Translations under genes and position numbers: made by a program
Shown here: in pieces, positions 2,392-24,851 of the stretch
Position numbering within the stretch: position 1 is the stretch's first letter
Layout: each line of letters begins with the position of its first letter
Notes under the pieces: model-generated
What the model was told of the DNA's origin: nothing
Database searches by the model: none
The model's input: only the letters and a program-made list of their open reading frames with translations
IMG/VR virus record: IMGVR_UViG_3300031565_000341
Span: 1 to 24,851 of that record
Direction: 5' to 3' (one strand)
Source of the DNA: a virus
DNA length: 24,851 bases

Positions 2392-2426
2392 AAAAAAAGG
2401 GGCAAGCCCATAAAAAAGCCCGCCCC
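2392..2426 (-). terminator. Rho-independent terminator after the major tail protein gene
   Basis: On the minus strand a GC-rich hairpin with GGGGCGGGC on the 5' arm and GGCTTGCCCC on the 3' arm is followed by seven T (2392-2398). Two G-T wobbles lie inside the stem. It sits 28 nt after the major tail protein stop codon and 9 nt before the next ATG. It probably lowers read-through from the highly expressed capsid and tail-tube genes into the portal. Confidence 0.85.
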
Positions 2427-2453
2427 CACCTTACCTAAATTAAAACAAATTTA

Positions 2454-3014
2454 TTAGTATCCAGGGCTAATAGTCGTAGTAGCTGTAAAGGCTCCTACTA
2501 CTGTAGCGTCTGTAAAGTCAGGGCCAAAAGGCGCTGGTACTTTTTCTTCTGCTGTGAATACCAAGTTATAGCCGTTAAGGTCCCCTTTAGCTGTTCCAGT
2601 ACCAAAGTTACCCCCTGTAACTTCAGCGCCAGTAGCGTATCCCATTACGTGGTAGTTATCGTTATTGTCCCTAACTACTATAGATAGTCTATTCTTTAAT
2701 ACTTCAGCTAGTTCTGCGTTATCTGCAGCGCTTAGCTTTGGTGTTTGGATAGTCAAAACTTGTTCGTAGTATACGGTACCGTTTTCTACTGAGCTTTGTA
2801 CATTTTGTTGAAAGCTACCGCTATTTTTAGAAAGCTCCCAGCGATAAAAAGTTATACTTCCGCCTGTAGAAGGCGCTGTATCTACATCGCTTACCGCCCC
2901 AGCTGCAATAGCCCCATAGTCTACGCTACTATGCTTAACCCAAAGTACCTCTTTTATACCGCCTATAGCGTCTTTACAAGGGTAAGCCCTTCCATTTTGT
3001 ATATCGCAAGACAT
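2454..3014 (-). CDS. Major tail (tube) protein
   Basis: This is a 186-residue protein with a short polar N terminus followed by CKDAIGGIKEVLWV, a start typical of Bacteroidota phage tail-tube proteins. The body is beta-rich with Gly/Thr-rich turns, and the C-terminal part (GYNLVFTAEEKVPAPFG) fits the tail-tube fold. It would polymerise as stacked rings around the tape measure. It follows the major capsid gene by 51 nt with a hairpin between them, and it is followed by a terminator, so capsid and tube proteins share a high-expression segment. The family call is inferred from sequence pattern and context; it could instead be another abundant virion protein. Confidence 0.65.
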   Translation of the reverse strand: MSCDIQNGRAYPCKDAIGGIKEVLWVKHSSVDYGAIAAGAVSDVDTAPSTGGSITFYRWELSKNSGSFQQNVQSSVENGTVYYEQVLTIQTPKLSAADNAELAEVLKNRLSIVVRDNNDNYHVMGYATGAEVTGGNFGTGTAKGDLNGYNLVFTAEEKVPAPFGPDFTDATVVGAFTATTTISPGY

Positions 3015-16061: not shown

Positions 16062-16430
16062 CTAGATATTAGCTTCTCTTTTGCTTTTAATAAAGCTTAT
16101 TATTTGCTCAGTTTTCGCCCTGTAGTAGTCAGCAAATCTAGCGTAGCCTTCTTTATTCTGGTCCCAGTTCACATATAAGTTATTTCTTATACGCTGGCTT
16201 TGTGTTTTAGGACTGTCGTATATATCGCTTTCTAGCTTGTCTAGTTCTGCTATCGTTTCTTTGTCTAGCTTCTCTTCAGCTCTAAAGTATAGGTAGCCAT
16301 AGCTATCTAGTAGCTGGTATATTTGGGCCGCTTGCTGTGGGCTTTGCTCCTGGGTTACAAAGCGTATACTTATACTTCTATCTTTCCTAGGGCTAAAGCC
16401 GTCTAAATAGGCTGGTAGTAAAATCTTCAT
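16062..16430 (-). CDS. Hypothetical protein upstream of TerS
   Basis: This is a 122-residue soluble, charged, helical protein. It starts with MKILLPAYLDGFSPRKDRSI and has a central helix (QQAAQIYQLLDSYGYLYFRA), a charged region (EEKLDKETIAELDKLESDIY), and a basic end with FADYYRAKTEQIISFIKSKR. I do not recognise a family with known function. It lies two genes upstream of TerL and its ATG overlaps the stop of the tiny two-helix membrane gene (ATGA), so it belongs to the same operon. It could be a packaging or late-expression accessory protein. Confidence 0.75.
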   Translation of the reverse strand: MKILLPAYLDGFSPRKDRSISIRFVTQEQSPQQAAQIYQLLDSYGYLYFRAEEKLDKETIAELDKLESDIYDSPKTQSQRIRNNLYVNWDQNKEGYARFADYYRAKTEQIISFIKSKREANI

Positions 16431-17982: not shown

Positions 17983-18066
17983 TTTATTGGTTTTGCTGCA
18001 AGTTTTGCTTAATAGAATATTCAAATCGCCTTGCAATAATCGGACGTTGTTCTTTTCGTATTTCAT
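17977..18066 (-). CDS. Possible 29-residue ORF after the tRNA
   Basis: ATG at 18066 follows the A/C-rich leader motif (AAACAAAACAAAA, 18071-18083) seen at early genes, so initiation here is plausible. The ORF reads MKYEKNNVRLLQGDLNILLS, then a Lys/Cys-rich end, and stops at 17977. It uses ATT for its single Ile, unlike the neighbours, and other frames of this stretch are open too. Coding is uncertain; it may be a leader peptide or noncoding. Confidence 0.35.
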   Translation of the reverse strand: MKYEKNNVRLLQGDLNILLSKTCSKTNKC

Positions 18067-18085
18067 AGTATTTTGTTTTGTTTAG

Positions 18086-18159
18086 TGCGCCCTCCAGGGC
18101 TTGAACCTGGGGCCCTCGCATTATGAGTGCGACGCTCTGACCTACTGAGCTAAGGGCGC
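18086..18159 (-). tRNA. tRNA with anticodon CAU (probably tRNA-Ile2)
   Basis: A full cloverleaf is visible on the minus strand. The acceptor stem is GCGCCCT/AGGGCGC, the D arm GCTC/GAGC, the anticodon arm TCGCA-CTCATAA-TGCGA, and the T arm CCAGG-TTCAAGC-CCTGG. The discriminator is A, and CCA is not encoded. Anticodon CAT means Met or Ile2 (C34 changed to lysidine, reading AUA). The first acceptor pair is G-C, so it is not initiator tRNA. C4-G69 and C5-G68, known as features that TilS recognises in tRNA-Ile2, are present. The genome uses ATA for most Ile codons sampled, which favours Ile2. It sits between the nuclease and ninG regions. Confidence 0.93.
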
Positions 18160-18198: not shown

Positions 18199-18909
18199 TT
18201 AAGCCCATTTAGGTAGCTCTAATATTTCTACTTTATCGCTATATCCTTGTGGCTGGCCGTCCCATATTAGAAAGTTATCTATAAGGCTATTTAGTAGCTT
18301 TTTACCTTCGCTTATTGCTTCAAGGTCTAGCCTATATAATTGAACATTATAAGGGGCTTTATTTTCTATCGCCACTATATAGAAGTCATTATAGCCTGTA
18401 AGCTCGCAATATACAGCGGCTTGTAAGTGGTAAAGAAGGTTATAGCTATCTCTAGTAAAAGCTTTGGGGCTAGCGTCTGTAGTTGTTTTAAGGTCCCCTA
18501 TAAAGCCTATACCCTTAAAATCTAAAAAGCCCCGCAAAGTTACTCCCCTGTATTCTTTCTCTAGCTCTAGCTCTTTTTGTGTACTATTTAGTAGCTCCAT
18601 AGCCAGGGTATTGTTATATACAGCTTCGGCCATTTTTAGTACTTCTTCGTAGTCGTTATAGGGTAGTATTTCTTTGCCCTGGTTATCTTCTAGGAAAGTA
18701 TTATATATAGCTTTACCTTCTTTAGTTCTTCTATCTACCTGGGGCGCTGTACCGTATCTTCTTCTATACTCTTCAGGCTCCAATACCATACAGTGTAAAG
18801 CGGACCCTTTTAGCATAGCTGGTGTAGTTTCCTGGTCCCTTTTTAGATATTGTAAAAGGTGGTTAGGGCTTTTACTAAAGGCTTTTAGTTTACTGTAGCT
18901 TAGTTTCAT
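18199..18909 (-). CDS. RecE-like PD-(D/E)XK exonuclease
   Basis: This is a 236-residue nuclease of the phage RecE C-terminal/PDDEXK type (PF12684-like, from memory). Motifs seen are GSALHCMVLEP (G35, H39), GFLDFKG (D130), GDLKTT (D139 and K141 of the catalytic D-x-K) and YHLQAAVYCEL (Q163), in the right order. It would chew 5' ends for recombination or concatemer processing. No RecT, Erf or Rad52 partner is recognised in the window. An A/C-rich leader (18911-18928) sits right before the ATG, and a terminator-like hairpin precedes it, so its expression may be separately controlled. Confidence 0.82.
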   Translation of the reverse strand: MKLSYSKLKAFSKSPNHLLQYLKRDQETTPAMLKGSALHCMVLEPEEYRRRYGTAPQVDRRTKEGKAIYNTFLEDNQGKEILPYNDYEEVLKMAEAVYNNTLAMELLNSTQKELELEKEYRGVTLRGFLDFKGIGFIGDLKTTTDASPKAFTRDSYNLLYHLQAAVYCELTGYNDFYIVAIENKAPYNVQLYRLDLEAISEGKKLLNSLIDNFLIWDGQPQGYSDKVEILELPKWA

Positions 18910-18910
18910 T

Positions 18911-18928
18911 TGTTCTGTTTTGTTTTGT
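18911..18928 (-). promoter_or_regulatory. A/C-rich translation leader of the nuclease gene
   Basis: The minus strand carries ACAAAACAAAACA (18916-18928) ending 6 nt before the ATG, with no Shine-Dalgarno-like sequence. Similar AAAACAAAAC tracts precede 18066, 19632, 20302 and, in shorter form, 21933. They are likely initiation enhancers suited to Bacteroidota ribosomes. Confidence 0.7.
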
Positions 18929-19044: not shown

Positions 19045-19632
19045 TTACTTATTTTCTAGGTCTTTTTTAAGTTTATTAACTTCTTTTTGTTCAATTAAGC
19101 CAAGCGCCCCCATTCTTTCTAGGTGGTCCTGTACGCTTAAAGTACCCCTTAGCTTATCGCTTATTTTGTCTTGTGGTGGGGTATACTTTACTTCTTTTAC
19201 TTCTATAGCTGGCTTGTTCTTTTGCTCTATGTATCTTTCTCTAGCATCACATACCAGGCTTTCGTATTGTCGGGCGAAGTCTAAAAGCTCGGCCACTTTT
19301 AAGCGCTCGTATATCTTATATTCGCCCCTTATTATTTTCTGAAAAAGTAGGTTAAAGTGTTCCAGGCTCCAGCTTTGGCCGTAGTCTAGTAGCGCATCTA
19401 CCGCTAGCTGGTACTCTTCGGGTCCGTTAAGCCTTTTTTTAGCATCTATATATTCTGAAAGCTTAGCTACTTGAACGTACAAGTATAGCTTTACTTCCTG
19501 GGGGTATTGCTTCTTTAGTATAGATACGGTCCTTTGTGGGTTGAAGGCTTCGTAGTGGTCCTTAAATTTCTTTACCCCTAGCTTCTCAGCTAGTTGTAAG
19601 CCATTCGCTTGTTGGTAGTTCTGTAGTTCCAT
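19045..19632 (-). CDS. Probable replication-partner protein
   Basis: This is a 195-residue helical protein directly downstream of the initiator (47-nt overlap), in the place of a helicase loader-like P gene. A segment (DALLDYGQSWSLEHFNLLFQ, then RGEYKIYERLKVAELLDFAR) resembles Bacteroidota DUF6633-type proteins, as I recall them. The C-terminal 50 residues are charged (VQDHLERMGALGLIEQKEVN and a Lys-rich tail). No ATPase motif is seen. The ATG is preceded by AACAAAACACAAA 4 nt away, which is also coding for the initiator. A role in loading host helicase is inferred from position only. Confidence 0.6.
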   Translation of the reverse strand: MELQNYQQANGLQLAEKLGVKKFKDHYEAFNPQRTVSILKKQYPQEVKLYLYVQVAKLSEYIDAKKRLNGPEEYQLAVDALLDYGQSWSLEHFNLLFQKIIRGEYKIYERLKVAELLDFARQYESLVCDARERYIEQKNKPAIEVKEVKYTPPQDKISDKLRGTLSVQDHLERMGALGLIEQKEVNKLKKDLENK

Positions 19633-20302
19633 TGTTTTGTGTTTTGTTGTTTTGGTCTAAATTAAAAAAACCTTTCCAGCCATTCTCTAGGCTTTGCAAA
19701 ATTATTTTTTTAGCGCTTTCTTCTTGGCCCTCGCTAAGCCTTACCAGTTTATTTATAGCTGCTTGCTCGCTTTGTGCGCTCTTATACTTAAAGCTATGCT
19801 CTTTGGCTTTGTATTCTTTCCATTGGTCCCACAAAAAAATAAAATCGCCCCCCCAAGGGTATTCTATTCTATTCTGTTCTTTTCTCTTCTTATCTTCTCT
19901 TATCTCTTCTTCTCTTATCTTATCTGCTAGAACTTGCTTCGGTTTGCTATAGCTTTCTTTAGCATTGCTAGGCATTGCTTTAGCATTGCTAGCTTTTGCT
20001 TTACCCCCTTTACGGCCAGCTTCTACCCTTTTGAAGTGCTTATTTTCTACCTCTTCTAGCTGTGCATCTAGGAAAGATATAACTATATAGCCTTCTTCTT
20101 CAGTTATTACCTTATACTTCAGTAGCTCGTGGTAGCTTACTACAGCTTCTTCTTTTGCGTCTTCAGTAGATAGGTTGCCGCCTTTGTTCCAATATATACA
20201 GCATAGCCTTATATATTCGGCCTGAGCTTCTAGGCTGCATCTTTGTATTTTGCCCATAAACCACTGGGCGGGGCTAAATTTAAACCAGGTTAAGTATTCC
20301 AT
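19586..20302 (-). CDS. Replication initiator-like protein
   Basis: A start at 20302 (MEYLTWFKFSPAQWFMGKIQ) is chosen over a longer upstream reading, because it follows an A/C-rich leader and matches family starts. The protein is 238 residues. The N-terminal 110 or so (SPAQWFMGKIQ, YIRLCCIYWNKGGNLSTEDA) form a winged-helix-like domain common in phage replisome organisers and DnaD/DUF1376-type proteins. A Lys/Ala/Asn-rich linker with internal repeats (KASNAKAMPSNAKES) follows. The C-terminal part (FIFLWDQWKEYKAKEHSFKY, then SLENGWKGFFN) matches DnaD-like ends. It contains candidate origin repeats. It would recruit host replication proteins. Confidence 0.75.
   Translation of the reverse strand: MEYLTWFKFSPAQWFMGKIQRCSLEAQAEYIRLCCIYWNKGGNLSTEDAKEEAVVSYHELLKYKVITEEEGYIVISFLDAQLEEVENKHFKRVEAGRKGGKAKASNAKAMPSNAKESYSKPKQVLADKIREEEIREDKKRKEQNRIEYPWGGDFIFLWDQWKEYKAKEHSFKYKSAQSEQAAINKLVRLSEGQEESAKKIILQSLENGWKGFFNLDQNNKTQNNGTTELPTSEWLTTS
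19636..19648 (-). promoter_or_regulatory. A/C-rich translation leader of 19045-19632
   Basis: AACAAAACACAAA lies 4 nt before the ATG at 19632, inside the coding end of the initiator gene. It belongs to the family of AAAACAAAAC leaders and is 13 nt identical to the complement of the tract at 22155-22176. Confidence 0.65.
19861..19926 (-). other. Purine-strand tract in the initiator gene
   Basis: Only nine plus-strand bases in these 66 are purines, so the minus strand is nearly all A and G. Coding is a charged linker (ADKIREEEIREDKKRKEQNR). Adjacent iteron-like repeats (19958-19992) make the pair resemble the lambda origin, where iterons and a purine-asymmetric AT-rich tract lie in gene O. Confidence 0.65.
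19958..19992. repeat. Iteron-like repeats, candidate replication origin
   Basis: GCATTGCT (plus strand) occurs at 19962-19969, 19972-19979 and 19983-19990, a spacing of 10-11 bp that puts them on one DNA face. The longer TTTAGCATTGCTAG occurs at 19958-19971 and 19979-19992. They encode the SNAKA-type repeats of the initiator. The location within the initiator gene beside a purine tract suggests the origin. Confidence 0.6.
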
Positions 20303-20306
20303 TTTC

Positions 20307-20320
20307 TTGTGTTTTGTTTT
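20307..20320 (-). promoter_or_regulatory. A/C-rich translation leader of the initiator gene
   Basis: AAAACAAAACACAA lies 4 nt before the ATG at 20302. No Shine-Dalgarno sequence is present. It matches the complement of the tract at 22155-22176 over 14 nt, the longest of the four. Confidence 0.7.
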
Positions 20321-20351
20321 TACGAAGTTATAAAAAAGGGGCAAAGCGCCC

Positions 20352-20528
20352 CTATTTTCTTTTGCTTCTTGCATACCAGCGCCCGCTACTATACCCTATT
20401 CTTTCCTGTATATATAGCCTAGTTATAGCCTTGTCTACTTCTTCAGGGTTTAGCTTAGTTATGATCATTATACCCCTTCTAGTATTTCCACCTATACTAG
20501 CGTCTAGTACTTTTTGCTCGCTATTCAT
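20352..20528 (-). CDS. Small basic hypothetical protein
   Basis: This 58-residue protein starts with MNSEQKVLDASIGGNTRRGI and ends RWYARSKRK. The ATG overlaps the stop of the upstream gene (8-nt overlap). The composition is basic with a short helix (LNPEEVDKAITRLYIQERIG) in the middle. It lies between an HTH protein and the initiator. It may bind DNA or RNA, but nothing specific is recognised. The tight coupling supports a real gene. Confidence 0.7.
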   Translation of the reverse strand: MNSEQKVLDASIGGNTRRGIMIITKLNPEEVDKAITRLYIQERIGYSSGRWYARSKRK

Positions 20529-20736: not shown

Positions 20737-21068
20737 AGTATAGTTATTTTTCTAGGTTGTTCTAATTCGATTAGTTGTACTTCTTTCTTTACTTCTTTCT
20801 TTGCTGGCTGTGAATTGCTATCAAATAGCTCGAGGTTATTTACTTCTAGGTAGGGCAAAGCATTACTTATACCCCTATTACCTAGCTCACCTGTGGTAAT
20901 ATAGTTGTTATACTCATATACCCAGCCTTTTAAGGTTTCATACTTTACCTGTAATAATTGGCTAGCCTTTTTTATCGTCATTCCCTGGGCCTTTAATTCT
21001 AAAGCCGCTTTAATATATTTAGCCTTTTGCTTTGGGTCGTAGTGCATATATTTTTTAGAAGGGTACAT
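20712..21068 (-). CDS. Helix-turn-helix protein
   Basis: This 118-residue protein has a helix-turn-helix in residues 13-50 (KQKAKYIKAALELKAQGMTI, KKASQLLQVKYETLKGWVYE), of the psq or transposase-type HTH seen in small phage DNA-binding proteins. The C-terminal half is a less structured linker (LGNRGISNALPYLEVNNLEL) with a Lys/Glu-rich end. It overlaps the SSB-like gene by 14 nt. A regulatory or replication-accessory role is plausible, with no known target. Confidence 0.65.
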   Translation of the reverse strand: MYPSKKYMHYDPKQKAKYIKAALELKAQGMTIKKASQLLQVKYETLKGWVYEYNNYITTGELGNRGISNALPYLEVNNLELFDSNSQPAKKEVKKEVQLIELEQPRKITILWGLITIN

Positions 21069-21492
21069 CTTCGCCCCCTTTCTTAGCTTCTACTATTCCT
21101 TGACTAACATAATTATAGAAGTATTCAGCCAGGCCTGTATATTGTACTGGCTCCATACCTAGCCCTAAAGCTTCTACAGCGGCCTTTAAACTACTTTGCC
21201 TCATTATTTGGTCTTGCTGGTCTTTACTCTTAGCGCCCCCATAGCTTTTACCGCCACCGCTACTAGCTTGGTAGCTTTCTAGCTTTTTAACGGCTCCATA
21301 CTTACCGTACTGGCTTTCCCCCCTTACAGTTACTTCTACCTGGTCCCCAGGCTTAAAAGGGCTTTGCTCGGTTTGGTGGTTAGCTGTTAGCTCTAGGCCG
21401 TCTTCAAAGGTGTACTTAAACTTATACAGTAAGCCGCTGGGACCCTGGTAAGTTTCATTTTTGCTAGTTACTTCTTTTACTGTGTTTTGCAT
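21055..21492 (-). CDS. OB-fold SSB-like protein
   Basis: This is a 145-residue protein. Residues about 8-75 read as an OB-fold: LLYKFKYTFEDGLELTANHQ, KPGDQVEVTVRGESQYGKYG and a following strand. A Gly/Ser/Lys-rich linker (76-92) and a helix (DQQDQIMRQSSLKAAVEALG) follow, and the protein ends in GGEDVPF. The acidic tip ending in PF is the hallmark of bacterial SSB proteins, which bind partner proteins by it. It would bind phage single-stranded DNA and couple host repair and replication proteins. It is part of the early operon with several overlaps. Confidence 0.8.
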   Translation of the reverse strand: MQNTVKEVTSKNETYQGPSGLLYKFKYTFEDGLELTANHQTEQSPFKPGDQVEVTVRGESQYGKYGAVKKLESYQASSGGGKSYGGAKSKDQQDQIMRQSSLKAAVEALGLGMEPVQYTGLAEYFYNYVSQGIVEAKKGGEDVPF

Positions 21493-21656
21493 AGTGTTAT
21501 TTTTACTTTGTTATTTTCTGCTTTTATAATTACTTGGCTATCATATATATTAAAGTCTATAAGTAGTACTTCTGCCATATATCTAAGGTCGGTAAGGTCT
21601 ATACTATCTGTAGTAGCTGTACCTTCTTTTACCAGCTGGTGTATTAGGCTAGTCAT
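21477..21656 (-). CDS. Small hypothetical early protein
   Basis: This 59-residue protein runs from ATG 21656 to TAA 21477. It overlaps its upstream gene by 8 nt and the SSB-like gene by 16 nt. The sequence (MTSLIHQLVKEGTATTDSID, then LRYMAEVLLIDFNIYD) is acidic and helical, with a short beta end (QVIIKAENNKVKI). Six of seven Ile codons are ATA. The couplings support a real gene with unknown function. Confidence 0.75.
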   Translation of the reverse strand: MTSLIHQLVKEGTATTDSIDLTDLRYMAEVLLIDFNIYDSQVIIKAENNKVKITLCKTQ

Positions 21657-21933
21657 TATCGTAGTTATTTTCTATATACTGGCTGTAGTAAGGTGGCTGT
21701 ACTAGTAGGCTTTTTTCTTTGCCATTTATATACGTTCTCATATCGTACATACCTTCAGTATAAGCGTACCCCAGGTGGCGCTTCTCGGCTTGCATACCAG
21801 CTTCATATAAACGGTCTAAAGCTTCTATAGATATAGTTAGCTGTGGCTCGCCTTCTTCGTTTATATTATACTTTGCTTCAGCTTGGATAGCTTTAAAAAA
21901 GTTTCTTACTGGTAGTTTCATTCGTTTGCTCAT
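21649..21933 (-). CDS. First early gene, hypothetical
   Basis: The start at 21933 (MSKRMKLPVRNFF) is chosen because a GCAAAACA leader precedes it, rather than a longer reading at 21966 that lies in the leader stem. A third ATG at 21921 is possible. The protein is 94 residues: a basic start, a helix (FFKAIQAEAKYNI), an acidic beta segment (EGEPQLTISIEALDRLYEAG) and a Tyr-rich end (SQYIENNYDND). It is the first gene after the main early promoter. Nothing is recognised. It may be a host takeover protein, but that is a guess. Confidence 0.7.
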   Translation of the reverse strand: MSKRMKLPVRNFFKAIQAEAKYNINEEGEPQLTISIEALDRLYEAGMQAEKRHLGYAYTEGMYDMRTYINGKEKSLLVQPPYYSQYIENNYDND

Positions 21934-21958
21934 TGTTTTGCTTTTTAAAGTTAATATA

Positions 21959-22017
21959 GGGGGCATATCACACGAAAGAAAGTCTAGGCCCTAGTCTATT
22001 TGGTGCGCTTAGCCCCC
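21959..22017 (-). promoter_or_regulatory. Structured early leader
   Basis: On the minus strand GGGGGC (22012-22017) and GCCCCC (21959-21964) can form a 6-bp stem enclosing a loop with a CTAGG/CCTAG mini-hairpin. It lies between the early promoter and the first early ATG. The GGGGGCTAA element recurs at 18968-18976 before the nuclease gene. A role in RNA stability or regulation is inferred. Confidence 0.55.
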
Positions 22018-22062: not shown

Positions 22063-22125
22063 AAGTATAGCATTTTTTTCTAAATTATTTTTAGTTTCCT
22101 TGCGTTTAGTGGTATTCAAGGGTAT

Positions 22126-22154
22126 AAAAAAAGCCCCAGGTATTCACCCAGGGC
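22126..22154 (-). terminator. Rho-independent terminator of the late/lysis operon
   Basis: The minus strand reads GCCCTGGGT-GAAT-ACCTGGGGC, a 9-bp stem with two wobbles, followed by seven T (22126-22132). It is 76 nt after the holin stop and before the early promoter, so it separates late from early transcription. Confidence 0.9.
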
Positions 22155-22176
22155 CAAAACAAAACAAAACACAAAG
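22126..22176 (-). ncRNA. Candidate 3'-UTR small RNA with antisense tract
   Basis: Directly upstream of the terminator the minus-strand RNA reads CUUUGUGUUUUGUUUUG and on (22155-22176), rich in U and G. This is the inverse of the AAAACAAAAC leader motif. It is complementary over 13-14 nt to the leaders at 18071-18083, 18916-18928, 19636-19648 and 20307-20320. A seed joined to a terminator hairpin is a typical trans-acting RNA layout. A weak promoter-like CTTG-19 nt-TACTTTG lies just upstream. No expression evidence is available, and low complexity could explain part of the match. Confidence 0.35.
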
Positions 22177-22205: not shown

Positions 22206-22231
22206 AAGGCTAATATACTAAATTTAGCCTT
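22206..22231 (-). other. Inverted repeat after the holin gene
   Basis: AAGGCTAA and TTAGCCTT form a perfect 8-bp inverted repeat with a 10-nt loop, starting in the holin stop codon. There is no T-run. It could be an mRNA-end-protecting hairpin or an operator. Confidence 0.7.
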
Positions 22232-22715
22232 ACCTATTATAGCGCTGGTCCTTATCTTTACTACCCTTGCTACTTCCAAAGTAATAGTTAAAGATAGAAA
22301 GAAGTATAGCCCCTTCTACTATTCCTAGTAGGTGGTAGTATATCTTCTCTTCTTTTATTTCTGTAAATAGCCCTACATATATAACCGTACAGCTAATAGC
22401 TAAACCTATTATACCTACCGTCCACTGTGCTACGTCAGGCTTTCCAGTAGCTTGTACTACTCCTACTTCTCTTTCTCTAGCGCTTTTTACGTTATCTACT
22501 TCTAGCCTTAGTAGCTCTAGCTCGTATTCTTGTCTAAGCTTTAGGTATTCTAGCCTGTCTTCTTGGCTTACTTTTTTACCTTCTATAAGCTTGCCTACTA
22601 CGTCTAGCGCTTCTATTCCTGTTAGGTCTGCTGCTACCTCTAGTACATCAGGAAATTTATTCTTTAACCAGCTACCTACTTTAGTTTCTTTAAAGGGCTT
22701 TTTATTTCTTTCCAT
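22230..22715 (-). CDS. Holin-like membrane protein
   Basis: This is a 161-residue protein. Residues 1-95 are soluble, with a helical part (RLEYLKLRQEYELELLRLEV) and KSAREREVGVV. Two membrane segments follow, about 98-117 (WTVGIIGLAISCTVIYVGLF) and 127-146 (YYHLLGIVEGAILLSIFNYY), and the C terminus is YYFGSSKGSKDKDQ. The SARxREV segment and the YYFGSS.GS end match the holin family I know from gene-transfer-agent-type holins (PF11351-like). It would form membrane lesions to release the endolysin. It overlaps the exonuclease by 14 nt and is the last gene before the terminator. Confidence 0.75.
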   Translation of the reverse strand: MERNKKPFKETKVGSWLKNKFPDVLEVAADLTGIEALDVVGKLIEGKKVSQEDRLEYLKLRQEYELELLRLEVDNVKSAREREVGVVQATGKPDVAQWTVGIIGLAISCTVIYVGLFTEIKEEKIYYHLLGIVEGAILLSIFNYYFGSSKGSKDKDQRYNR

Positions 22716-23472
22716 TTCTTTTACTCTTTAAGTACTCGCTGTGGGCTTTGCCGCTAATAGTGTAATAGCCGTAGCATTTTTTACATTTCATTTGGTACTT
22801 GATAATACCAGTAGCTGTACTTCTTTTGTTAAATTGGTTTACCTCTTTACTAGCACATCTCGGGCAAGTCCATTTTTTACCGTCCTTAAAGGCTCCAGCG
22901 TGGCTAGTTATTGGTACATAGTTTATAAACTCCTGGTGTACTTTTTCAAGTATTACTACATCTCTTTTACAGTAGTCTACCATTCGCTGTAGCGCTTCTT
23001 CGTTGCCGCTTATTACATCTTTCCAAAGATCAAAGCCGCCAGTTTCTAGCTTTTCGCCTACTCCTAAGTACTTAGCTATGTAGTCTAGCTTATTAGAATT
23101 AAACCTAAAGTTACCCCTGGCCCTTTTTAGTGTATCTGTAGTAACTGGCTTAGGTGGCCACTCTAGCCTGTGGTAAAGCGCTCTAGTTCTTATCCAGGGT
23201 ACATCGAAACGGTCCCCATTATGAGCTATTAGTATATCTGCTTTATTAGCTACTTCTATAAAGGTCTTTATAGCTTTGTAGTCATTTTGCTTTTTGTCCC
23301 AGGTTACATACTGTACCTCTTCTTCTCCTTCTAGCTTCCAGCATATACAAATTACTTTGCGCTCTTCTATTATAGCTTCAGGGCTTATACGCTCCCTATA
23401 GCCAGCCTTCCAAAAGTAGCCTATATTAGGGCTAGTTTCTATATCGAAATATAACCGCTTTAGTACAGCCAT
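22702..23472 (-). CDS. DEDDy 3'-5' exonuclease with C-terminal zinc ribbon
   Basis: This is a 256-residue protein. Residues about 5-190 form an RNase H-like exonuclease: Exo I D10-I-E12 (FDIETSP), Exo II with D90 (HNGDRFD) and Exo III YCKRD (Y167, D171), which is the DEDDy type. A C-terminal zinc ribbon has C203-x2-C206 and C230-x2-C233. It resembles DnaQ/YprB-like exonucleases, here without a polymerase. It lies between the endolysin and holin genes, overlapping them by 13 and 14 nt. It could degrade host nucleic acid or trim phage DNA; the role is not known. Confidence 0.8.
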   Translation of the reverse strand: MAVLKRLYFDIETSPNIGYFWKAGYRERISPEAIIEERKVICICWKLEGEEEVQYVTWDKKQNDYKAIKTFIEVANKADILIAHNGDRFDVPWIRTRALYHRLEWPPKPVTTDTLKRARGNFRFNSNKLDYIAKYLGVGEKLETGGFDLWKDVISGNEEALQRMVDYCKRDVVILEKVHQEFINYVPITSHAGAFKDGKKWTCPRCASKEVNQFNKRSTATGIIKYQMKCKKCYGYYTISGKAHSEYLKSKRNGKK

Positions 23473-23813
23473 ATTACCCCGCTTACTTTGCTTTCGTCTA
23501 TATCAACGTGAATAAAGCCCTTAGCTATACCGATACGCTTAAAGCCAGCCTTTATACAAGCGTTTAATACTTTGTACCTGGTCTTACTATCGCTTGCGGC
23601 AATATCACAAGCTAGGCCCTTTAAGTGGCTGCTGTTAGGCTTACCCCCTACTTTTTTATTCCAGGCTATGGACCTATACCCACTATTCACTATAAAAGGT
23701 ATACCCGCTATTTCTCTAGCTTCTTCTAACTTATTTATAAGCTTTTGGCTTACTATATTACCACTTCCTGGTAGGTCGGGGCTGTCGAATTCTTGGTATT
23801 GAAAGTACTTCAT
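23460..23813 (-). CDS. Endolysin, M15 family peptidase
   Basis: This is a 117-residue zinc peptidase of the M15_3 type that would cut peptidoglycan cross-bridges for lysis. The zinc site is SSHLKGLACD (H63 and D70) and FIHVDID (H102, with D104). NSGYRSIAWN precedes them, as in D-Ala-D-Ala carboxypeptidase-type lysins. There is no signal peptide, so a holin is needed for export. The start is coupled (ATGA) to the small membrane gene upstream. Length is typical of single-domain M15 lysins. Confidence 0.9.
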   Translation of the reverse strand: MKYFQYQEFDSPDLPGSGNIVSQKLINKLEEAREIAGIPFIVNSGYRSIAWNKKVGGKPNSSHLKGLACDIAASDSKTRYKVLNACIKAGFKRIGIAKGFIHVDIDESKVSGVIWLY

Positions 23814-24267: not shown

Positions 24268-24824
24268 CGGTCTAAAATCCAGCTGTATCTTTCTCTTTCT
24301 TTAGTGTACTTTGCCCCCTGGCTAATTTCCATACCACCTATAAAGTAGGCTTTCTTCTCGGCTCCCATTTCGGCCCCTTCTGCTAGGCTATACTCAGGAA
24401 ATAAAGCGCTATTATTACATAGGTAGTCTATCATTCTTTCAGTGTAAAACTGTGCGTTTGTCCTGGCTCGGTCTATTTCTCGGTGTAGGTCCTGGGTGCC
24501 TATAGGGGTCGTATCTTCGCTAGTTCTAATAACTAGGCCCCCATTATCTAAACGTATATATAGGCTAGGTATCATTTCTACCATACCCCACCAAAGGGTA
24601 CATTTTCTTACATAAGTTTCTAGAAGTACCTGGTAGTTACCGGTAATAGTACCGCCCGCTATATCGTTCTTTAGCTTGGTAAATAGCCTAGTACCTAGAA
24701 AGCTTTGTATATACTTATCCTGAGCTAGTAAAAGGTGGCTAACTATATAGCTTTCTTCTACTGAGCCGTTTAGGTGGCTATATCGCTTCATATAGTCGCC
24801 ATTTATAAAAAGTACTTCTTGCAT
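24264..24824 (-). CDS. Head-tail connector-like protein (DUF6712-like)
   Basis: This 186-residue protein follows the portal across the circular junction. It has HLLLAQDKYIQSFLGTRLF in the first quarter, a pattern of DUF6712-type Bacteroidota phage proteins with a KVAQD...IQxYLGT segment, as I recall. Then follow CTLWWGMVEMIPSLYIRL, helical charged regions and an aromatic end. Such proteins likely act as a head completion or connector ring beneath the portal. The start lies 3 nt after the portal stop. The first 40 codons are duplicated at 1-120. Confidence 0.7.
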   Translation of the reverse strand: MQEVLFINGDYMKRYSHLNGSVEESYIVSHLLLAQDKYIQSFLGTRLFTKLKNDIAGGTITGNYQVLLETYVRKCTLWWGMVEMIPSLYIRLDNGGLVIRTSEDTTPIGTQDLHREIDRARTNAQFYTERMIDYLCNNSALFPEYSLAEGAEMGAEKKAYFIGGMEISQGAKYTKERERYSWILDR

Positions 24825-24851
24825 ATCTTACTTTAGTTTACCTCTATTTGG
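24705..24851. repeat. Right copy of the terminal direct repeat
   Basis: It matches 1-147 with one mismatch (C at 24831 versus A at 127). The last 24 bases are the portal 3' end. Joining at the repeat closes a circle of about 24,704 bp. Confidence 0.95.
24828..24851 (-). CDS. Portal gene, duplicated 3' end fragment
   Basis: The final 7 codons and stop of the portal gene are repeated at the right edge. In this copy the last residue is Lys (AAG) instead of Asn (AAT). It is a fragment of the gene at 124-1995, not a separate gene. Confidence 0.9.
   Translation of the reverse strand, partial: PNRGKLK

Follow-up and report, generated by a model that had tools for sequence, protein, structure and literature searches.

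A tract beside a phage late terminator is complementary to early gene start regions and may act as an antisense RNA

The stretch analysed here, referred to as the window, is the full IMG/VR record IMGVR_UViG_3300031565_000341 of 24,851 bases. According to the list of open reading frames (ORFs), its long genes lie on the minus strand, and gene content suggests a division into late and early classes. The putative late operon contains a portal-type gene, a relative of an annotated portal, and an endolysin match at 23460-23813 found by family search. Its last gene (22230-22715, minus strand; 161 aa) matched only families of unknown function in such searches. A preliminary description of this DNA had placed lysis genes upstream of the element discussed below; this finds its basis in the endolysin match, the last late gene having no named family. 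The name holin had been given to the 161-aa gene from position alone and was not borne out by family searches. The portal gene ends at position 124, and the gene after the portal in the related contig L002 has a counterpart in the window that starts at 24824 on the same strand (24824-24851), so the record may represent a circularly permuted, nearly complete small genome.

After the 161-aa gene comes an antisense tract in the late 3' UTR (22156-22176, minus strand), whose RNA reads 5'-CUUUGUGUUUUGUUUUGUUUU-3' and is single-stranded in the predicted fold. An intrinsic terminator (22125-22155, minus strand) follows it and closes the late operon; it consists of a hairpin at 22155-22132, with 10 pairs of which six are G-C, and a T run that would give a U run in the RNA. 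The minus-strand RNA immediately 5' of the hairpin is CUUUGUGUUUUGUUUUGUUUUGG. Terminator-like sites are common in the region overall, with nine found and 7.6 expected. The motif AAAACAAAAC has two minus-strand copies, at 18917 and 20311; its plus-strand copies are confined to 22156 and 22161, which form one overlapping run next to the hairpin, and none of 100 shuffles reached four matches. The earlier statement that the sole inverted copy of the leader motif lies directly before the late terminator was therefore correct. The anatomy is that of a 3' UTR-derived element, in that the tract shares the terminator of the late mRNA, and the same place is occupied in the relatives L002, L056, L058 and L113. 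At the gathering score no Rfam family covered the tract, and the only match in the window was a tRNA.

The next ORF begins about 190 nt past the late terminator. This first ORF (21649-21966, minus strand) has a TAnnTTTG promoter-like motif upstream and a leader without clear complementarity to the tract; early-type genes, including an exonuclease VIII-type nuclease, come after it. A role of the tract as an early promoter was rejected, as the TAnnTTTG motif sits beyond the terminator. The early region also holds a tRNA-Met (CAT) gene at 18085-18159 (minus strand), and the leader of the ORF starting at 18066 begins just after its 3' end.

Four leaders in the early region, all on the minus strand, are complementary to the tract. 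Fourteen nucleotides pair at 20307-20320, 4 nt before the ATG at 20302, the product of which has a weak primosomal-protein-type match. Stretches of 13 nt pair at 19636-19648 (3 nt before the ATG at 19632; product without a family match), at 18916-18928 (6 nt before the ATG at 18909; exonuclease VIII-type nuclease) and at 18071-18083 (4 nt before the ATG at 18066). The last of these is the weakest target, because its ORF has 29 codons and adjoins the tRNA-Met gene. The perfect pairing of 13-14 nt claimed beforehand was thus recovered, with a spacing of 3-6 nt instead of the 4-6 nt given. The accompanying claim that the targets are replication and recombination genes has a clear family match (exonuclease VIII) behind it for 18909; matches are weak for 20302 and absent for 19632. 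The 19632 leader is contained in the 3'-terminal part of the ORF before it (19586-20374), and the exact 10-mer is present in only two of the four target leaders. Further sense-strand matches of at least 10 nt were found at 16208 (11 nt) and 14113 (10 nt), neither near a start. All four targets are 1.9-4.1 kb from the tract. A terminator-like hairpin (20353-20337, minus strand) was observed directly upstream of the 20302 leader, and a terminator-like, G/C-rich inverted repeat near 18975-18935 (minus strand) directly upstream of the 18909 leader; early genes may be separate transcription units. The same order of terminator, leader and ATG was seen in L002 at 11403.

The four-leader match was compared with chance in two ways. 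Among 24,826 coding-strand windows of 26 nt, the tract was the only one complementary (≥11 nt) to four leaders, all others reaching at most one; for this count the ORF-derived starts were supplemented manually with the ATGs at 18066 and 20302. Hybridisation against shuffled sequences had been proposed in the preliminary description, and only 1 of 5000 dinucleotide shuffles did as well as the tract, with ≥13 nt at all four leaders. When the demand was lowered to ≥11 nt at three leaders of the four, 173 of 5000 shuffles succeeded, because the tract is repetitive.

Megablast of the window against phages gave no match, nor did the 161-aa gene by tblastn in phages or by alignment in genome contigs, and a scan with the 19045-19632 product alone found no relative. 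By capsid-region and portal proteins, the sole related isolates found were Nonlabens phages P12024S/L (22% and 28%). P12024S (L121; NC_018271), the isolate of the pair that was examined, shares the window's gene order around the portal. It lacks a terminator at the late/early boundary, and its two terminators show no exact leader match above 8 nt. Portal relatives in genomes comprised nine loci, six titled Bacteroidota and three from one Pseudooceanicola metagenome-assembled genome (MAG); a clear tract was found in only one, L402 from a Psychroflexus MAG, and the other eight had at most exact matches of 9-10 nt to single leaders. The hosts of such phages are probably flavobacteria, an assignment that rests on distant relatives.

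The tract was also recovered in a diverged contig, L002/L007, in which the 161-aa gene is 71% identical to that of the window. UGUGUUUUGUUUUG occupies the corresponding position there and is followed by a terminator with a different stem from the window's. The available stretch of this contig has nine copies of AAAACAAAAC, which fall at seven leader sites and all lie past the boundary in the early region, and a single inverse copy, at the tract. The preliminary description had named relatives that keep the leaders yet lose the tract as evidence against a functional link; L002 is the opposite case and has kept both. Its tract matches six listed leaders, compared with at most one for any other window. 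By the same count, the tracts of L058 and L314 score 2 versus 1 elsewhere, and that of L061 scores 1, which 51 other windows equal, so it is not unique. According to fold predictions, part of the tract is base-paired in L007 and in L058.

Searching IMG/VR for the tract motif plus a following CCC returned at least 119 stretches. Among the stretches listed, 113 were without a complementary leader of ≥10 nt in the available sequence, four (L282, L296, L348 and L369) had one, and two had two or more, namely L314 and L391, the latter being the L002 contig. A terminator lies immediately past the tract in both L391 and L314, that of L314 being recognised by reading and folding after the script had missed it. 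Terminators were flagged by the script in L331, L358 and L367 among the matches listed, all of them without a complementary leader. In L314 the first two ORFs past the terminator have leaders with 14-nt complementarity. Positions 961-1025 of L314 carry the window's tract motif and a terminator, together with the two matching leaders. Judged by matches and not by direct alignment, its terminase-type protein matches other phages than the window's terminase does; the L314 tract may be a shared module or a product of convergence.

Tracts of other sequence were examined in relatives gathered through five proteins. Many of the contigs in this comparison set are incomplete. The boundary tracts of relatives complement early leaders of their own genome, often across the AUG. 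The complementary stretch is ACAAAACACAATG for L058 and L061 and CAAACACTATGAA for L067. Predicted energies reach -26.8 kcal/mol in L113, where the stretch includes AUGAUG, -25.3 kcal/mol in L204, and -22.6 kcal/mol at the better of two leaders for TAAACCAAA in L056. In L402, 16 nt pair from the start codon of one gene, and the first ORF past the terminator scores -17.6. L056 has two tracts, at 886 and 5680, of the AAACAAATGAAA and TAAACCAAA types, each for different early leaders. The proposed design, a late tract pairing with early leaders, was in this way found with different letters in many phages, and many other lineages have no clear element.

When 89 terminators from 61 genomes were taken without any choice of site, own leaders fell in the best 5% in nine cases (about 4.4 expected) and ranked first in three (1.5 expected). 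Late-operon terminators made up seven of those nine; the other two (L111 at 396 and L087 at 4363) have no placed context. The L111 tract at 396 gave four strong energies with its own leaders (-24.9 to -22.2 kcal/mol) and exact matches that are short.

A dedicated boundary set was built from the terminator found first in the interval 1.5-6.5 kb past the portal (in L009, the last of a tandem), with the window, L061 and L067 added by hand; 31 loci were reduced to 29 by deduplication. Against 60 dinucleotide shuffles of each tract, early leaders gave a Stouffer score of -6.0, with p ≤ 0.05 in 11 of 26 tracts (neighbouring control segment -1.7, 3/26); the remaining 15 of 26 missed that threshold. 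Late leaders gave +1.1 and 0/27 (control +1.3, 1/27). With the first leaders the score was -5.1, with p ≤ 0.05 in 7/29 (control +0.4, 1/29), and own first two early leaders compared with swapped ones gave z -4.0 and p 5e-5 (control segment p 0.45). An energy swap test over all early leaders gave z -5.3, with late leaders at p 0.22, but the control segment likewise scored, at -3.8, so this form of the test was not relied on.

The results for first leaders bear on an explanation in cis, by which the tract would fold onto the first downstream early leader of read-through transcripts and hide its start. At several boundaries (L113, L204, L061 and L056) the partner is indeed the first early leader, 90-330 nt downstream, and at such sites the tract may act in this way. 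In the window, however, the first leader is a poor partner, ranking 20 of 29, and the targets lie kilobases away.

A second late terminator, which the preliminary description could not cover, was also examined. In the window, a segment homologous to this second site (2426-2460, minus strand) precedes the terminator after the gene at 2454-3014. That gene belongs to phrog_19091, a family of unknown function with a weak virion structural match in two of six members; family searches did not bear out the label of tail gene once used for it. Across loci, duplicates included, second-site tracts scored -7.2 against shuffles for early leaders (21 loci) and +1.15 for late leaders (33 loci), with control values of -1.1 and +1.2. 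At this site one early gene family, designated A4, kept supplying the partner leader; its window homologue is at 21055-21492. Family searches gave no usable match for A4, the label "SSB-like" was withdrawn as these searches did not bear it out, and no A4 match was found in P12024S. The window's own second site shows no detectable complementarity to the window's early leaders and scores +1.1.

A4 was picked as the fixed target after several loci had been viewed, and the test was framed with some loci already seen; outside that preview were L104 (a match in which had been visible earlier), L192, L200, L211, L229, L234 and L268. Fixed A4 pairs in 31 deduplicated genomes gave z -6.9, with 0 of 20,000 permutations as good and a control p of 0.34. 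Start codons of A4 were then corrected by an HMM rule independent of the tract. With corrected starts in 28 genomes, own pairs averaged -15.9 kcal/mol versus -10.8 for swapped pairs (z -9.0, 0/50,000; control null), and the longest exact match was 8.7 versus 4.3 nt. The own genome ranked first in 10 of the 28 and third or better in 16. Conserved complementarity to unlinked initiation regions, a trait of trans-acting small RNAs, was thus found at this site; it was absent in 7 of the 28 pairs (the window, L004, L058, L144, L223, L237 and L239), where the own genome came 16th or further down the ranking.

From tract to A4 target the distance is 4.5-9.1 kb in the 27 genomes besides the window. A further terminator lies between the two in 22 of these; none was detected in five. 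Given these distances and intervening terminators, and the 1.9-4.1 kb that separate the window's tract from its targets, action in trans is favoured, and we judge folding in cis to be quite unlikely as the general explanation.

Exact cores of at least 9 nt, the only ones listed by position, lay between -15 and +7 of the ATG in 14 of 15 pairs, the other being L234 at -21 to -10. One subgroup comprises eight distinct pairs. In it the column after AACCAAA is compensatory, with C-G in four pairs, A-U in two, G-C in one and U-U in one, and the pair with G facing C was found in L192, L211 and L243. Other columns of the subgroup were mixed, and the position before AACCAAA pairs in only three of the eight. 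Wobble-compatible mismatches were not in excess (two G-U, one A-C and five transversions).

The lack of a wobble excess would suit a DNA element, in which inverted copies of the motif serve as a protein operator or recombination site and RNA pairing is incidental, as RNA complementarity equals an inverted repeat in DNA. We regard this as very unlikely, since several phages have cores that extend over the start codon and the tract stands 5' of a terminator hairpin. Orientation also speaks against it: among 71 terminators, those matching two or more leaders at 10 nt numbered six in the antisense, two in the reversed and one in the sense orientation.

Those reversed matches, and the control segment that scored in the energy-only swap over all early leaders, are what would be expected if A-rich leaders and U-rich pre-terminator segments matched by chance or composition. 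The shuffle and fixed-target swap tests take composition out, however, and with the motif scan, in which 113 of the stretches listed had the motif and no leader, the window count and the 5000 shuffles they disfavour this explanation. Its companion, that the tract is the leftover leader of a reverse-strand gene, was rejected on 17 boundary tracts: six had no ATG, ten opened frames of 3-37 codons, and L223 had frames of 40 and 104 codons. Taken together, these two origins are highly improbable.

A further reading keeps the pairing and reverses the roles, with early leaders acting on the termination or stability of the late mRNA 3' end until the early mRNA is gone. The sequence does not give the direction of action, and the position of the tract against the terminator hairpin in all tested pairs follows from how the tract was defined. 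In the window and in L002, though, a single tract matches several different early leaders, and cores sit on start sites; a block of initiation fits this better, and we consider the reversed arrangement unlikely.

We therefore put forward, as the somewhat more probable account, that a terminator-ended antisense RNA from late mRNA 3' ends acts in trans to block early translation. Late transcription would yield a 3' end made of the tract and intrinsic terminator, which might be set free as a short RNA or stay attached to the mRNA as its tail. This end would pair in trans with unstructured A/C-rich early leaders, often including the AUG, and the duplex would keep ribosomes off early start sites, so that early translation would fall while late expression rises. 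It is from features visible in the sequences, namely anatomy, complementarity, restriction to early leaders and covariation between lineages, that we infer RNA-RNA pairing in the cell, repression, a regulatory role of the late RNA and its timing. Whether such elements form a widespread class of phage antisense RNAs, with fast-evolving late-terminator tracts that covary with their targets and would silence early genes in trans, is close to an even question; the withdrawal of the "SSB-like" label lowers its probability slightly, although it names no function for the targets. At that same tentative strength, the class would span Flavobacteriaceae phages and might reach into other Bacteroidota, and a single phage would use different tracts for different early genes.

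Start regions of Flavobacterium johnsoniae are described as A-rich and lacking Shine-Dalgarno sequences, with adenines near the start being helpful (PMC6847099), and Bacteroides as having no obvious Hfq and ProQ, longer seeds being suggested there (PMC7366714). Long A/C:U/G duplexes at start sites would suit such conditions.

No description of such an element was found among open-licence PMC papers or in the accessible part of a review of phage small RNAs (PMC12197685), and the former yielded no transcript-level study of this phage group. According to that part of the review, the phage RNAs OOP and aQ of lambda, sar of P22, StxS, VpdS and PreS base-pair with phage or host mRNAs (PMC12197685). 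The proposed element has in common with them phage-encoded base-pairing with mRNAs to set expression, and none of those described there consists of a late 3' end directed against multiple early starts. Each of OOP, aQ and sar lies on the strand opposite its target and overlaps it; here tract and targets are on the same strand at different places, so the tract is not a cis-antisense RNA of the OOP/sar type. In anatomy, as far as the available descriptions go, the nearest systems are the 3' UTR-derived small RNAs SdhX and CisR, in which an antisense segment beside the terminator of its own mRNA pairs with other mRNAs. Those RNAs are bacterial, SdhX being Hfq-dependent, whereas the element here is phage-encoded, apparently aimed at the phage's own early leaders, and predicted from sequence.

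In phage T4, hairpins on early read-through mRNA hide the start sites of late genes. These hairpins resemble the tract in that wrong-phase genes would be kept untranslated by pairing at the start; they act in cis on late genes, whereas the window's targets are far away. Nearest in mode of action, and compared on that alone, is T4 RegA, which sits on or next to the AUG of numerous phage mRNAs, where the sequence is A/U-rich and unstructured, and prevents their translation (PMC3014915). The proposed start-site block is common to both; with RegA the agent is a protein that has some 30 target mRNAs, and the agent proposed here is an RNA with specificity by base pairing. Covariation of tract and target could allow genes controlled in this way to be recognised from the sequence of uncultured phages. 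If the proposal is right, the tract would be a concrete late-to-early off-switch made of RNA and tied to how ribosomes find starts in A-rich leaders without Shine-Dalgarno sequences, and would do with RNA what T4 RegA does with protein, in hosts that use no Shine-Dalgarno pairing.
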